Assembly (NCBI RefSeq): GCF_036700095.1 | Contig: NZ_CP144918.1 | Coordinates: forward strand, 1,303,001 to 1,367,000 | Source: Pelagerythrobacter marensis | Lineage (GTDB): Bacteria; Pseudomonadota; Alphaproteobacteria; Sphingomonadales; Sphingomonadaceae | Direction of reading: 5' to 3' | DNA: 64,000 nt | Part shown: piece by piece, positions 2,731 through 52,134 of the stretch | Numbering within the stretch: the first letter of the stretch is position 1 | How the letters are laid out: the number at the start of each line of letters is the position of its first letter | The notes under the pieces: model-generated | Seen by the model: the letters and a program-made list of their open reading frames with translations, nothing else | Database searches by the model: none | What the model was told of the DNA's origin: nothing | Position numbers and translations under genes: made by a program

Positions 2731-2812
2731 GGTAGGAGCAGGTGGGGCGGTTGCCCGCCCGGGAGGCGGGGGGCAGGGTTCTATCGGCGGGTGGGAGCGG
2801 GTGGCGCGGTTG
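2731..2812. repeat. Imperfect 23-bp direct repeat
   Basis: Bases 2731-2753 and 2790-2812 match at 20 of 23 positions (ggt-a/g-ggagc-a/g-ggtgg-g/c-gcggttg). The second copy ends inside the left edge of the inverted-repeat element at 2809-2970, and gttgggg-cagg just before the first copy also resembles that element's outer edge. This suggests an older fragment of the same element family. Confidence 0.6.
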
Positions 2813-2970
2813 GGACAAGGCCCCTCCACCACGCGCTTCGCGCGCGGTCCCCCTCCCCATCGCAAGACGATGGGGAGGAATGGGTGAGGCCGGGACCGTT
2901 CCTCCCCAACGACTTGCGTTGGGGAGGTGGCAGCCGCGCAAGCGGCTGACGGAGGGGCCCCTGCCCCAAC
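2809..2970. repeat. MITE/REPIN-like inverted-repeat element, family B doublet
   Basis: A 162-bp element made of two inverted arms of about 72 bp around a spacer of about 20 bp. Both arms begin gttggg at the outer edge and end ggggaggaa at the inner edge. Each arm carries two hairpins: CCTCCCC plus 4 bp against its complement (loops caaga and acttg), and a second one (cgcgc-ttc-gcgcg on the left, cagccgc-gcaa-gcggctg on the right). The stems differ in sequence between arms but stay paired. The same two-hairpin unit flanks the DUF559 gene at 50068-50115 and 50525-50572. Confidence 0.8.
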
Positions 2971-49483: not shown

Positions 49484-50065
49484 TCACAACTCGTCCGCCC
49501 GCATGCGGAAGATCGGCGTGTGCGGCTCGTAAGCCGCCAGCCGGTCGAGCAGCGCGGTCAGGGTGGCTTCGGCGACGATGATCCCCTGATGCGCGGGCCG
49601 GACGAAGCCGACTTCGGCCATGTGGCGATAGAACGCGATCAGGTGGTCGTAGAAGCCGAAGGCATTGAGCAGGCCGACCGGCTTGGTGTGATAGCCGAGC
49701 TGCGCCCAGCTGACCGCTTCCCACAGCTCGTCCATCGTGCCGACGCCGCCGGGGATGGTCACGAACCCGTCGGACAGGTCGGTGAAGCGCTGCTTGCGCT
49801 CGTGCATTCCCGATACGGTGTGCAGTTCGGTGCAATCGGTGTTGGCGACTTCGCTGCCGGCCAGCGCCTCGGGGATGATCCCGATCACTTCGCCCCCGGC
49901 CTCGAGCGCGGCGCCGGCAACCGCGCCCATCAGGCCGAGCCGCCCGCCGCCGTAGACGACCCCGATGCCGCGCTGCGCCAGCGTGGCGCCCACCTCGCGC
50001 GCGAGTTCGATATAACGCGGATCGGCGGGCGTGGCGGACCCGCAATAGACGGCAAGACGTTTCAT
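49484..50065 (-). CDS. LOG family (TIGR00730) Rossmann-fold protein
   Basis: A 193-residue protein with the LOG signature: LAVYCGSATPADPRYIELAREVG, GIGVVYGGGRLGLMGAVA, ERKQRFTDLSDGFVTIPGGVGTMDELWE (PGGxGTxxE). Members act as cytokinin-activating or nucleotide phosphoribohydrolases. The ATG at 50065 overlaps the DUF559 stop (ATGA), and the Shine-Dalgarno (ggggagga) is supplied by the adjacent repeat. A longer reading would only add translated repeat residues. Its place between crtI and crtB is unexplained. Confidence 0.9.
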   Translation of the reverse strand: MKRLAVYCGSATPADPRYIELAREVGATLAQRGIGVVYGGGRLGLMGAVAGAALEAGGEVIGIIPEALAGSEVANTDCTELHTVSGMHERKQRFTDLSDGFVTIPGGVGTMDELWEAVSWAQLGYHTKPVGLLNAFGFYDHLIAFYRHMAEVGFVRPAHQGIIVAEATLTALLDRLAAYEPHTPIFRMRADEL

Positions 50066-50484
50066 AGATCCTCCCCGGAACGGGGAGGGGGACCAGCCGC
50101 CGGCTGGTGGAGGGGTACCATCGGTTTCTCCGTCCGTTGGGAGCAAATTTCGACAATGCGCCTAACTACCGGCTCGATATCTTCAAGCACAAGTTTGGCC
50201 GGAATGCGTGTCGTCGCAATGCCTTGCGAACGCAGAAATGCCGAACGGCGTGCATCCTTGCGCGCGCTGATCTCGTTGTCGTGCGTCCAGCCGTCCACCT
50301 CGATCGCAAGCCTGATCTTCGCGCAATAGAAGTCGAGAATGTAGTCGCCCGCGGAGTGCTGGCGGCGGAACTTGAATCCGCCCGGCCGTTTCCGAAGCTC
50401 TCGCCACAGCAGCGCCTCGGGCAGCGACATCTCGCTGCGCAGCTTGCGAGCCTTCCTGATCGTGTCGCGCGGACCTGTGATCAT
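50062..50484 (-). CDS. DUF559 (Vsr-like) endonuclease-fold protein
   Basis: A 140-residue protein with the DUF559 pattern: RKLRSEMSLPEALLWRELRK, FKFRRQHSAGDYILDFYCAKIRLAIEVDGWTH, RRSAFLRSQGIATTRIPAKLVLEDIEPVVRRI. The D in YILDFYC and E-x-D in IEVDG match a PD-(D/E)xK/Vsr-type active site. The last 16 or so residues (VPLHQPAAGPPPRSGE) are encoded by the flanking repeat. GC content is visibly lower than the crt genes around it. ggaggagg upstream supports the start. No Dcm-type methylase is nearby; the real function is unknown. Confidence 0.87.
   Translation of the reverse strand: MITGPRDTIRKARKLRSEMSLPEALLWRELRKRPGGFKFRRQHSAGDYILDFYCAKIRLAIEVDGWTHDNEISARKDARRSAFLRSQGIATTRIPAKLVLEDIEPVVRRIVEICSQRTEKPMVPLHQPAAGPPPRSGEDL
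50068..50115 (+). repeat. Two-hairpin repeat, left flank of the DUF559 cassette (family B)
   Basis: 48 bp reading atcctccccg ... ggtggagggg. It folds as CTCCCCG-gaa-CGGGGAG and ACCAGCC-gcc-GGCTGGT. It is an inverted copy of 50525-50572 (41 of 48 identical). It encodes the DUF559 C-terminal tail and the ribosome-binding site of the LOG gene on the minus strand. Confidence 0.9.
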
Positions 50485-50524
50485 GGCGATCGCGCCTCCT
50501 CCAAAATCCCGATCACGGCGCGTG

Positions 50525-50572
50525 CCCCTCCACCATGCTGCGCATGGTCCCCCTCCCCGTGGCGGGGAGGAT
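50525..50572 (-). repeat. Two-hairpin repeat, right flank of the DUF559 cassette (family B)
   Basis: 48 bp; on the minus strand it reads atcctccccg ... ggtggagggg, folding as CTCCCCG-cca-CGGGGAG and ACCATGC-gca-GCATGGT. All seven differences from the left copy fall in loops or are paired, compensatory changes in the second stem. Its outer end touches the crtI stop codon. Confidence 0.9.
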
Positions 50573-52134
50573 CATGCGCTCAAATCTCCGATCATCAGCC
50601 CGGCCGTCGCCTTCGCGCTGCCGACGACGCCGGGAATGCCCGCCCCCGGGTGCGTGCCCGCGCCGACCAGGTAGAAGTTCGCGATCGCATCGTCGCGATT
50701 ATGCGCGCGGAACCAGGCGCTCTGCGTCAGGATCGGTTCGAGGCTGAACGCGCTGCCGAGATGGGCGTTGAGGTCGAGCGCGAAATCGCGCGGGGCGTAG
50801 TGGAAGCTGGTGACGATGCGGTCGTGGATGTCGGGGATCAGCCGCCGCCCGACTTCGTCGAGGATGCGCCGTTCGAGCATCGGGCCGATCTGTTCCCAGT
50901 CCACCGCCAGCTTGCCCTGGTGGGCGACCGGGACCAGCGCGTAGAAAGTGGAGCGGCCCGGCGGCGCCATGCCCGGATCGGTCACGGTGGGATGGTGCAG
51001 GTAGATCGAGAAATCGGCCGGCAGGACGCCGTTTTCGTAGATGTCGTCGAGCAGCCCCTCGTAACGCGGCCCGAACAGGACCGTGTGATGGGGAATGCCA
51101 GGCCATGTCCCCTCCAGCCCGAAATGGACCACGAACAGGCTGGGGCTGAACCGCTTGCGCGCGAGCGAGCGGGCCTGCTCCGTCCCGCGCTTGGTCCCGC
51201 GCAGCAGGTCGCGATAGGTGTGCACGATGTCGGCGTTGCTGGCCACGGCGTCGAACGTTTCGCGCCAGCCGCTGGCGGTCTCCACCTCGGTCGCGCGGTT
51301 GCCGATCGTATGGACCTGCACCGCCGCGTCGCCCAGCCGCACGGTCCCGCCGAGCCGTTCGAAATGGCGCACCATGCCGGCCACCAGCCGGTTGGTGCCC
51401 CCGCGCGCCCACCACACGCCCCCGTCCTTCTCCAGCTTGTGAATGAGGGCGTAGATCGCGCTCGTCGTCATCGGATTGCCGCCGACCAGCAGCGTGTGGA
51501 AGCTGAACGCCTGGCGCAGCCGTTCGTCCTCGATATAGCGCGCGACCATCGAATAGACCGAGCGCCAGGCCTGGTGCTGCAGCAGGGCCGGTGCCGCGCG
51601 GATCATGGCCCGGAAATCGAGGAACGGGATGCTGCCCAGCCGCAAATACCCTTCGCGATAGACGCTTTCGGAATAGGCGAGGAATTCGTGATATCCCGCG
51701 ACATCGGCAGGGTTCAGACGTGCGATTTCGGCGTTGAGCTGCGCCTCGTCGTTCGAATAGTCGAACACCGTCCCGTCGGGCCAGTTGAGGCGATAGAACG
51801 GCGCGACTTTCATCAGTTCGACATCGGCATCCATGTCGCTGTCGGTCAGCGCCCACAGTTCGCGCAGGCAGGCGGGGTCGGTGATGACGGTGGGACCGGC
51901 ATCGAAGGTGAAGCCCTCGCGTTCCCAGTAATAGGCGCGGCCGCCGGGCTTGTCGCGCGCCTCGATCACCGTCGTGGCGATCCCGGCCGATTGCAGGCGG
52001 ATCGCCAGCGCCAGACCGCCGAAGCCGGCGCCGATCACGCAGGCGCGCTTCCCGTCGACGCGATCGGGCACGGGCGCCCCGGCGGCGGCGGGCGCGTCGT
52101 GCAGGAACGAGGTCTGCCGGTCGGTGTCGATCAT
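50572..52134 (-). CDS. crtI: Phytoene desaturase (lycopene-forming type)
   Basis: An FAD-dependent desaturase converting phytoene to lycopene. The 520-residue protein has the N-terminal dinucleotide fold ACVIGAGFGGLALAIRLQSAGIATTVIEARDKPGGRAYYWEREGFTFDAGPTVIT and the C-terminal bacterial signature NFYLVGAGTHPGAGIPGVVGSAKATAGLMI. The start overlaps the crtY stop (ATGA). The downstream repeat begins at the stop codon, so the DUF559 cassette has been placed without damaging the gene. Confidence 0.96.
   Translation of the reverse strand: MIDTDRQTSFLHDAPAAAGAPVPDRVDGKRACVIGAGFGGLALAIRLQSAGIATTVIEARDKPGGRAYYWEREGFTFDAGPTVITDPACLRELWALTDSDMDADVELMKVAPFYRLNWPDGTVFDYSNDEAQLNAEIARLNPADVAGYHEFLAYSESVYREGYLRLGSIPFLDFRAMIRAAPALLQHQAWRSVYSMVARYIEDERLRQAFSFHTLLVGGNPMTTSAIYALIHKLEKDGGVWWARGGTNRLVAGMVRHFERLGGTVRLGDAAVQVHTIGNRATEVETASGWRETFDAVASNADIVHTYRDLLRGTKRGTEQARSLARKRFSPSLFVVHFGLEGTWPGIPHHTVLFGPRYEGLLDDIYENGVLPADFSIYLHHPTVTDPGMAPPGRSTFYALVPVAHQGKLAVDWEQIGPMLERRILDEVGRRLIPDIHDRIVTSFHYAPRDFALDLNAHLGSAFSLEPILTQSAWFRAHNRDDAIANFYLVGAGTHPGAGIPGVVGSAKATAGLMIGDLSA

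Follow-up and report, generated by a model that had tools for sequence, protein, structure and literature searches.

The window analysed here, a stretch of 64,000 nucleotides from Pelagerythrobacter marensis (contig NZ_CP144918.1, positions 1,303,001 to 1,367,000), carries a small nuclease gene of the DUF559 family that lies between two inverted palindromic arms and separates crtI from LOG. The gene together with its arms is referred to as the cassette and is considered as a candidate mobile element. The open reading frame (ORF) matches the DUF559 profile PF04480 with E 2.7e-26 and 92 bits, against a curated cut-off of 20.6, and the guanine-plus-cytosine (GC) content of 50123-50484 is 0.60, compared with 0.68 for LOG, crtI and the window. 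The cassette is tightly fitted between its neighbours: the stop codon of the crtI ORF (50572-52134, minus strand) touches the right arm, the DUF559 ORF traverses the left arm and terminates at a stop codon that overlaps the start of LOG (ATG at 50063-50065, minus strand). Coordinates, profile match and composition thus bear out an earlier note on this DNA, which had described a 140-residue DUF559 gene of lower GC between 48-bp inverted repeats, fitting between the crtI stop and the LOG start. The gene is intact, and comparison with the orthologous cassette in congener G294 gives a ratio of nonsynonymous to synonymous substitution rates (dN/dS) of 0.16, indicating purifying selection.

Single-strand folding predicts two hairpins in each arm (z -3.0 and -2.6), here called H1 (outer) and H2, and a short tag follows on the gene-facing side. 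Read by eye, the arms begin with the letters ATCCTCCCC and end with GGAGGGG. Aligned with each other, again by eye, they show seven differences, of which two fall in the H1 loop, one falls in the H2 loop and four form two compensatory stem-pair changes; the earlier note was therefore right that every difference is either in a loop or compensated. The two 180-bp flanks reach an inverted-repeat score of 37, whereas the highest score among 2000 dinucleotide shuffles is 28, which rules out a chance inverted repeat. A known RNA family was also considered and rejected, as Rfam returned no match. The same note had reported the two-hairpin unit as an inverted doublet elsewhere in the window. The doublet is real, but it belongs to a related subfamily and its layout is the opposite of the one at the cassette (Table 1).

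Table 1 Features of the cassette and of the gene-less doublet in the window
Feature	Position	Strand	Basis or remark
DUF559 (PF04480) nuclease gene, 140 aa	50062-50484	-	ORF and profile match; last codons are left-arm DNA
Left arm, whole, 48 bp	50068-50115	+	
Left arm, H1 hairpin CCTCCCC-GGAAC-GGGGAGG (outer)	50070-50088	+	Sequence and folding
Left arm, H2 hairpin ACCAGCC-GCC-GGCTGGT	50092-50108	+	Sequence and folding
Left arm, tag GGAGGGG, gene-facing; mirrors H1 purine arm GGGGAGG (possible triplex third strand)	50109-50115	+	Sequence
Right arm, whole, 48 bp	50525-50572	-	
Right arm, tag GGAGGGG, gene-facing	50525-50531	-	Sequence
Right arm, H2 hairpin ACCATGC-GCA-GCATGGT; two compensatory pairs relative to left arm	50532-50548	-	Alignment and folding
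Right arm, H1 hairpin CCTCCCC-GCCAC-GGGGAGG (outer)	50552-50570	-	Sequence and folding
Doublet without gene, related subfamily with 27-nt H1	2809-2970		H1 at 2852-2878 and 2901-2927 inside, tags outside

Palindromic units around DUF559 genes

Seven PF04480 genes were found by profile search in the 2.9-Mb P. marensis genome. Repeat searches and inspection of the flanks place five of them (L001, L003, L004, L005 and L006) between inverted palindromic repeats of several subfamilies, and a sixth (L002) has palindromic units on one side only. L004 and L006 are type-A cassettes that have a subfamily in common, and their arm score of 44 is the highest of the 21 own-genome pairs. The seventh gene, L007, adjoins a sufC-like gene and is free of these units. 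Its downstream flank holds an inverted pair of another kind, and its catalytic residues are replaced. Related palindromes also occur without a gene. The pattern CCTCCCCN{3,25}GGGGAGG has 52 forward-strand occurrences in this genome, compared with 12 for a reversed control, and by eye more than 10 of 20 short stretches read are gene-less doublets, so that doublets outnumber cassettes. Five of these doublets, each about 138 bp long and mutually 88-96% identical, have sharp ends (TCCTCCCC...GGGGAGGA); four lie within 10 kb and the fifth is 0.6 Mb away.

The survey was extended to three samples of DUF559 loci, chosen from longer match lists and mostly best-scoring. In Alphaproteobacteria, 97 of 289 genomes were PF04480-positive and 97 loci were examined, including the seven of P. 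marensis; a phylum sample, with 112 of 299 genomes positive, contributed 48 further loci; and a named set (Sphingomonas, Variovorax, Luteimonas, Xanthomonas, Dyella, Nitrospira, SAR202 and others) contributed 80. Of these 225 loci, 218 could be scanned structurally for a tagged pyrimidine hairpin lying no more than 300 bp from the gene; seven were dropped because of short flanks, and 213 distinct loci remained after removal of duplicates. As controls, 363 neighbouring ORFs, crudely called, were scanned in the same way. Tagged hairpins were found on both sides of 98 DUF559 loci, on one side of 83 and on neither side of 32, whereas the corresponding counts for control ORFs were 0, 22 and 341. 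Flanking copies, which the earlier note had wanted counted, are thus present at most of the sampled DUF559 genes. The scan is conservative, scoring only L004 and L006 as two-sided in P. marensis. Among the 98 two-sided loci, 67 have inverted units with gene-facing tags (the others being RR 12, FF 10 and RF 9).

An inverted-repeat score gave a similar picture. The value of 37, which is the 99th percentile of cross-paired flanks, was exceeded at 39 of 97 alphaproteobacterial loci and at none of 187 control ORFs. In the phylum set, compared with cross-pairs only, 15 of 49 loci exceeded it; in the named set 23 of 74 loci scored at least 37, compared with 0 of 185 controls, and 1.9% of cross-pairs attained this score. 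When DUF559 proteins of the same genome are compared, protein identity rises with arm similarity (rho 0.61 over 111 pairs; none of 500 within-genome permutations was as high). Several single loci are also of interest. L019 and L026 carry units and, from a reading of the flank letters, lie beside carA. In Rouxiella silvae (L275, 4463-5312), a tandem array of CCCTTCCCCAT..GGGGAAGG units with a period of about 87 bp lies downstream of the DUF559 gene, and in Gallionella sp. (L206) the DUF559 copy has a stop codon within the matched stretch and is perhaps a decayed element.

Across genomes, the abundance of the units follows the presence of DUF559 genes. In the 289 alphaproteobacterial genomes, H1 palindromes were counted with the pattern CCCTCYCCCN{1,12}GGGRGAGGG, and a DUF559 hit with E<1e-20 was taken as strong. 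Of the 72 genomes with a strong hit, 36 hold at least 10 palindromes, compared with 6 of the 217 others; the repeat is therefore not equally frequent with and without DUF559, a comparison that the earlier note had named. In 22 of the 28 families that contain both kinds of genome, DUF559 goes with a higher mean palindrome count; five families show the reverse and one a tie. Palindrome abundance does not follow the Y1 transposase in the same way. A profile search of the P. marensis genome gave no hit to PF01797, and none of the 41 Y1-positive genomes of the alphaproteobacterial sample that lack a strong DUF559 hit has at least 5 palindromes.

Mirror tags, TMECO/PIT and Escherichia coli ycjD

Because the tag mirrors the purine arm of H1, each arm could form an intrastrand triplex. 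This design was assessed by reading each hairpin on both strands and, for asymmetric purine arms, matching the downstream tag with at most one mismatch to either the mirror image or a direct copy of the arm. The mirror image was favoured 242 times and the direct copy 77 times, with 104 ties. With every G required to match, the mirror image was found in 379 of 765 cases and the direct copy in 180, and shuffled flanks gave 35 mirror matches. An antiparallel purine-motif triplex permits either A or T opposite A. The letters facing A in the tags are A in 468 cases, T in 304, G in 21 and C in 19, which is compatible with such a triplex. The window tag GGAGGGG is an exact mirror of GGGGAGG and by its letters follows the third-strand rule of the published TMECO/PIT repeats, a mirrored purine arm with A or T facing A.

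TMECO/PIT, published as intrastrand triplex motifs, occur in E. coli and in more than 260 genomes, with 23 copies in strain MG1655 and a triplex that is stable in vitro (PMC4666352). The available part of that paper reports elevated local instability around the motifs, and neither a function for the flanking genes nor a link to transposons, phages or plasmids; in its main text, no word begins with nuclease or endonuclease (PMC4666352). The window arms resemble TMECO/PIT in having a C-rich arm, a G-rich arm and a mirrored G-rich third strand, and inverted doublets occur in both. They fall outside the published consensus, CCCTCNCCC-N3-6-GGGNGAGGG-N3-GGGNGAGGG, and differ from it in the stem, which is shorter, and in the second loop, which holds a second hairpin. 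An exact copy of the consensus does occur alongside the L003 cassette of P. marensis (G000:C1:1943746-1943781). In the 299 phylum genomes, at least one consensus copy is present in 42 of 83 strongly DUF559-positive genomes and in 14 of 216 others; outside Alphaproteobacteria the counts are 21 of 27 and 11 of 159.

In E. coli MG1655, copy 9 of TMECO is tabled at 1,351,204-1,351,239 (Table 1 of PMC4666352). The neighbouring ycjD (1,351,407-1,351,760) is a DUF559 gene (E 1.4e-49) whose product is 40% identical to the window protein. The TMECO unit stands exactly at the tabled place, 167 bp past the ycjD stop, and a degenerate second unit was seen by eye at the ycjD 3' end. Units are likewise on the 3' side of the DUF559 gene at L162, L163 and L168 (three genomes of one family), and they are on both sides at L260 in Cedecea. 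In E. coli, ycjD is variable: a fabI-sapF query is covered to 80% or more in 3333 of 5426 genomes, and in three ycjD-lacking loci that were read (L307-L309), a TetR regulator and resistance-nodulation-division (RND) efflux genes follow fabI. The PF04480 search of a 14-genome control set gave no match for E. coli, although MG1655 YcjD itself matches at the E value above. Three points thus go beyond the earlier note: the arms follow an intrastrand-triplex design, repeats of this kind are already published, without an owner gene, as TMECO/PIT (PMC4666352), and E. coli ycjD is an adjacent DUF559 gene.

Variable junctions and bounded copies

A DUF559 hidden Markov model search was applied to 30 crtI loci, including that of P. 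marensis; gene names at the other junctions come from reading the flanks. Adjacency of crtI and LOG is kept in 19 of the 30 loci, and DUF559 is present at crtI in only two (L098 and L099), those of P. marensis and G294. In G293, whose crtI is 92% identical, the crtI-LOG interval is 46 bp, compared with 509 bp in P. marensis. Four other P. marensis cassettes are polymorphic as well. The pntA1-pntA2 junction is filled in G294 and G308, and has an 18-bp gap in four congeners and a 27-bp gap in G293. Between trpA and trpB, the cassette is present in G290 and G292 and not in four congeners. The Lrp-accC junction is filled in G291 and G292 and unfilled in four congeners and G308. At the junction of an acyl-CoA dehydrogenase and a carboxylase gene, P. 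marensis alone has DUF559, and the gap in G292 is -4. Unfilled sites often hold other sequence, and for the Hsp20-like flank of cassette L001 no orthologue was found. Purely vertical descent of the gene, which the earlier note had named as a check at this locus, is rejected by the polymorphism among relatives at these five P. marensis sites.

Gene-less doublets vary in a comparable manner. Two of them lie inside trmD-like (L297, G000:C1:2261200-2261560) and valS-like (L300, G000:C1:2050990-2051330) coding regions, named by reading, and leave the frame open. At the valS-like site, three congeners are empty and one is filled like P. marensis; at the trmD-like site, four congeners have doublets whose family is unlike that of P. 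marensis and one has none, so that different species hold different repeat families. Size differences among the compared congeners are multiples of three at both sites. These in-frame doublets recall the Rickettsia palindromic elements.

Nine pairs of paralogous cassettes were compared. In four (L062/L063, L074/L075, L082/L084 and L041/L039), both limits of homology coincide with the terminal units or miss them by no more than a few bases, and the flanks are unrelated. Both members of the L041/L039 pair are in one single-contig genome. Together with the variable junctions, the anatomy of these cassettes suggests that they are mobile, although this is read from sequence comparison.

A putative nuclease-driven palindrome system

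An AlphaFold2 model of the window protein has a mean predicted local distance difference test score (pLDDT) of 88.6 and a predicted template-modelling score (pTM) of 0.76. Foldseek searches with the model match an endonuclease-like protein of Neisseria gonorrhoeae (3hrl, E 3.3e-6) and, as the closest functionally characterised match, the catalytic domain of the homing endonuclease I-Bth0305I (3r3p, E 5.8e-5), followed by PvuRts1I (1.5e-3) and, weakly, Vsr (0.13), with some mitoribosomal proteins in between, from 5e-3. The protein is thus predicted to have a Vsr/EDxHD-like PD-(D/E)XK fold, EDxHD being the name for the I-Bth0305I class. The predicted catalytic residues E62, D64, H68 and D77 are invariant in 39 sequences. 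All of the first three are retained at 180 of the 181 loci that have one arm or more, compared with 27 of 32 loci without arms. Four of the six exceptions (L007, L048, L049 and L052) lie near a sufC-like gene; having no arms and replaced catalytic residues, these paralogues are probably domesticated.

We consider it likely that the DUF559 nuclease and its inverted terminal units form a mobile palindrome system that resembles repetitive extragenic palindromic (REP) sequences and their REP-associated tyrosine transposases (RAYTs), with the nuclease recognising and mobilising its own subfamily of units. The window cassette would then be one copy of a mobile element that consists of a DUF559 gene and two inverted terminal units. 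As a single strand, each unit would fold into a hairpin, and the mirror-image third strand could cap the purine arm of that hairpin. The nuclease may bind such folded ends and nick them at the base of H1, probably while replication leaves them single-stranded, and it might thereby mobilise both gene-bearing cassettes and short gene-less doublets, as RAYTs probably do for REPs and REPINs. No PD-(D/E)XK enzyme is known to form a covalent intermediate with DNA; joining at a new site, the weakest step of the scheme, would therefore presumably occur through host repair, by which the element would be copied or joined elsewhere (cut-and-copy). The earlier note had already suggested that DUF559 may play the RAYT role for a different REP-like family, and the flanking, the genome-level association and the polymorphism support this suggestion; the mobilising activity itself is something we infer. 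For the wider proposition, namely a widespread class of mobile DNA that has single-strand triplex-hairpin ends and a mobiliser with a Vsr/homing-endonuclease fold, is the source of TMECO/PIT and has YcjD as a living or relic copy, the balance is only moderately favourable.

The evidence for a DUF559-mobilised system consists of the flanking and genome-level associations, the bounded duplication in four of nine pairs, the presence and absence of cassettes, the dispersed doublets, the covariation of protein and arms, the mirror rule and the conserved catalytic residues, all of which were observed. Several results weigh against it. The 83 one-sided and 32 unit-free loci among the 213 lack the expected pair, and 31 of the 98 two-sided loci (RR 12, FF 10, RF 9) deviate from the inverted layout with inward tags. 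The searched palindrome is absent from 13 of 72 alphaproteobacterial genomes with a strong DUF559 hit, six genomes without one hold 11 to 31 copies, and in five of the 28 families the palindrome mean is lower with DUF559. Covariation of protein and arms could follow from duplication of whole cassettes, which does contribute. Moreover, five of the nine paralogous pairs do not have arm limits at both ends: in L185/L196, L044/L045 and L085/L086 only the right-hand end is at or near a unit, in L057/L058 the gene and disjoint pieces of the arms are alike, and in L066/L067 similarity also extends about 1 kb upstream. No consistent target-site duplication, the mark of classical DDE insertion sequences and of miniature inverted-repeat transposable elements (MITEs), was apparent by eye where four cassette pairs meet their flanks or in the valS and trmD comparisons. 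In E. coli K-12, units were seen only downstream of ycjD, and the three ycjD-lacking strains that were read have other genes in place of a clean empty site. Tags that copy the purine arm directly instead of mirroring it are likewise fairly frequent (180 of 765, every G matched). Finally, the TMECO triplex left no footprint in vivo, according to the available part of the published study (PMC4666352).

DUF559 could instead be a passenger similar to homing endonucleases. Doublets would then spread by other means, such as replication slippage or an unknown transposase, and the gene would colonise them because its nuclease cuts palindromes and repair copies the gene in. Both the fold match to I-Bth0305I and the excess of gene-less doublets over cassettes in P. 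marensis agree with this explanation. We nevertheless hold it to be unlikely, since palindrome abundance tracks DUF559, protein similarity covaries with arm similarity, the whole cassette including its arms is the duplicated unit in four pairs, and Y1, the sole other mobiliser searched for, is absent from the P. marensis genome. A host-retained housekeeping nuclease, acting in repair of the very-short-patch (VSP) kind or in palindrome processing, with the hairpins as terminators or protective structures and the association as a by-product, is also conceivable. It would fit the dN/dS of 0.16, the domesticated appearance of the armless paralogues beside sufC-like genes, and the Caulobacter DUF559 protein VsrA, which is tied to YGCCGGCR methylation and SOS induction (PMC12907096). 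However, orthologous junctions differ by gain or loss of the cassette, two-sided hairpins occur at none of the 363 neighbouring ORFs, and catalytic residues have been lost from the four suf-linked paralogues, which belong to the armless group, and we regard this explanation as highly improbable. The inverted flanking copies and the doublets do resemble the REP/RAYT layout, and ordinary REPs or REPINs moved by a Y1 transposase, with DUF559 nearby by chance, were therefore considered. They were rejected and retain almost no probability, given that the P. marensis genome has no PF01797 hit, that palindromes do not follow Y1 in the genome sample (0 of 41, as above), and that two-sided flanking distinguishes 98 of 213 DUF559 loci from the controls.

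The preferred reading, a DUF559 nuclease that mobilises its own units, has counterparts among known systems. With homing endonucleases and with PvuRts1I/AbaSI and Vsr, the window protein has in common the predicted fold, and DUF559 has invariant E62, D64 and H68. Unlike homing endonucleases inside an intron or intein at a single homologous site, DUF559 occurs at seven places in one genome; the copies inspected stand alone as ORFs where two genes meet, at several unrelated sites and between palindromes of their own. Caulobacter VsrA (CCNA_02930), which has a DUF559 domain in common with the window protein, is required if cells without a solitary cytosine methyltransferase are to respond to DNA damage; it is interpreted in terms of mismatch repair, and the available part of that paper does not mention flanking repeats (PMC12907096). 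Searches of open-access PubMed Central, which say little about ycjD, gave no paper connecting DUF559 with these repeats or naming an owner gene for TMECO/PIT. If the preferred reading is true, a repeat class of E. coli and more than 260 genomes would gain an owner and an origin, and the local instability reported around it a possible cause (PMC4666352). DUF559, including YcjD of E. coli K-12, would gain a function, a nuclease that is not a transposase would be able to run a REP-like palindrome economy, and the phenotype of Caulobacter VsrA would call for re-reading.

The REP/REPIN-RAYT system is similar in its short inverted palindromes around one enzyme gene, its gene-less doublets and its several subfamilies per genome. 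The enzyme differs, being a DUF559 protein with a predicted PD-(D/E)XK/Vsr-like fold instead of an HUH/Y1 transposase. The hairpin ends of REPs carry the tag GTAG or CGTC (PMC3733652), whereas the window arms have neither tag and their units obey the mirror-image (triplex) rule. A further likeness to REP/REPIN-RAYT is rarity on plasmids and phages: at E 1e-5 with the window protein as the single query, relatives turn up in 36 of 72,556 plasmid records and 2 of 50,697 phage records.

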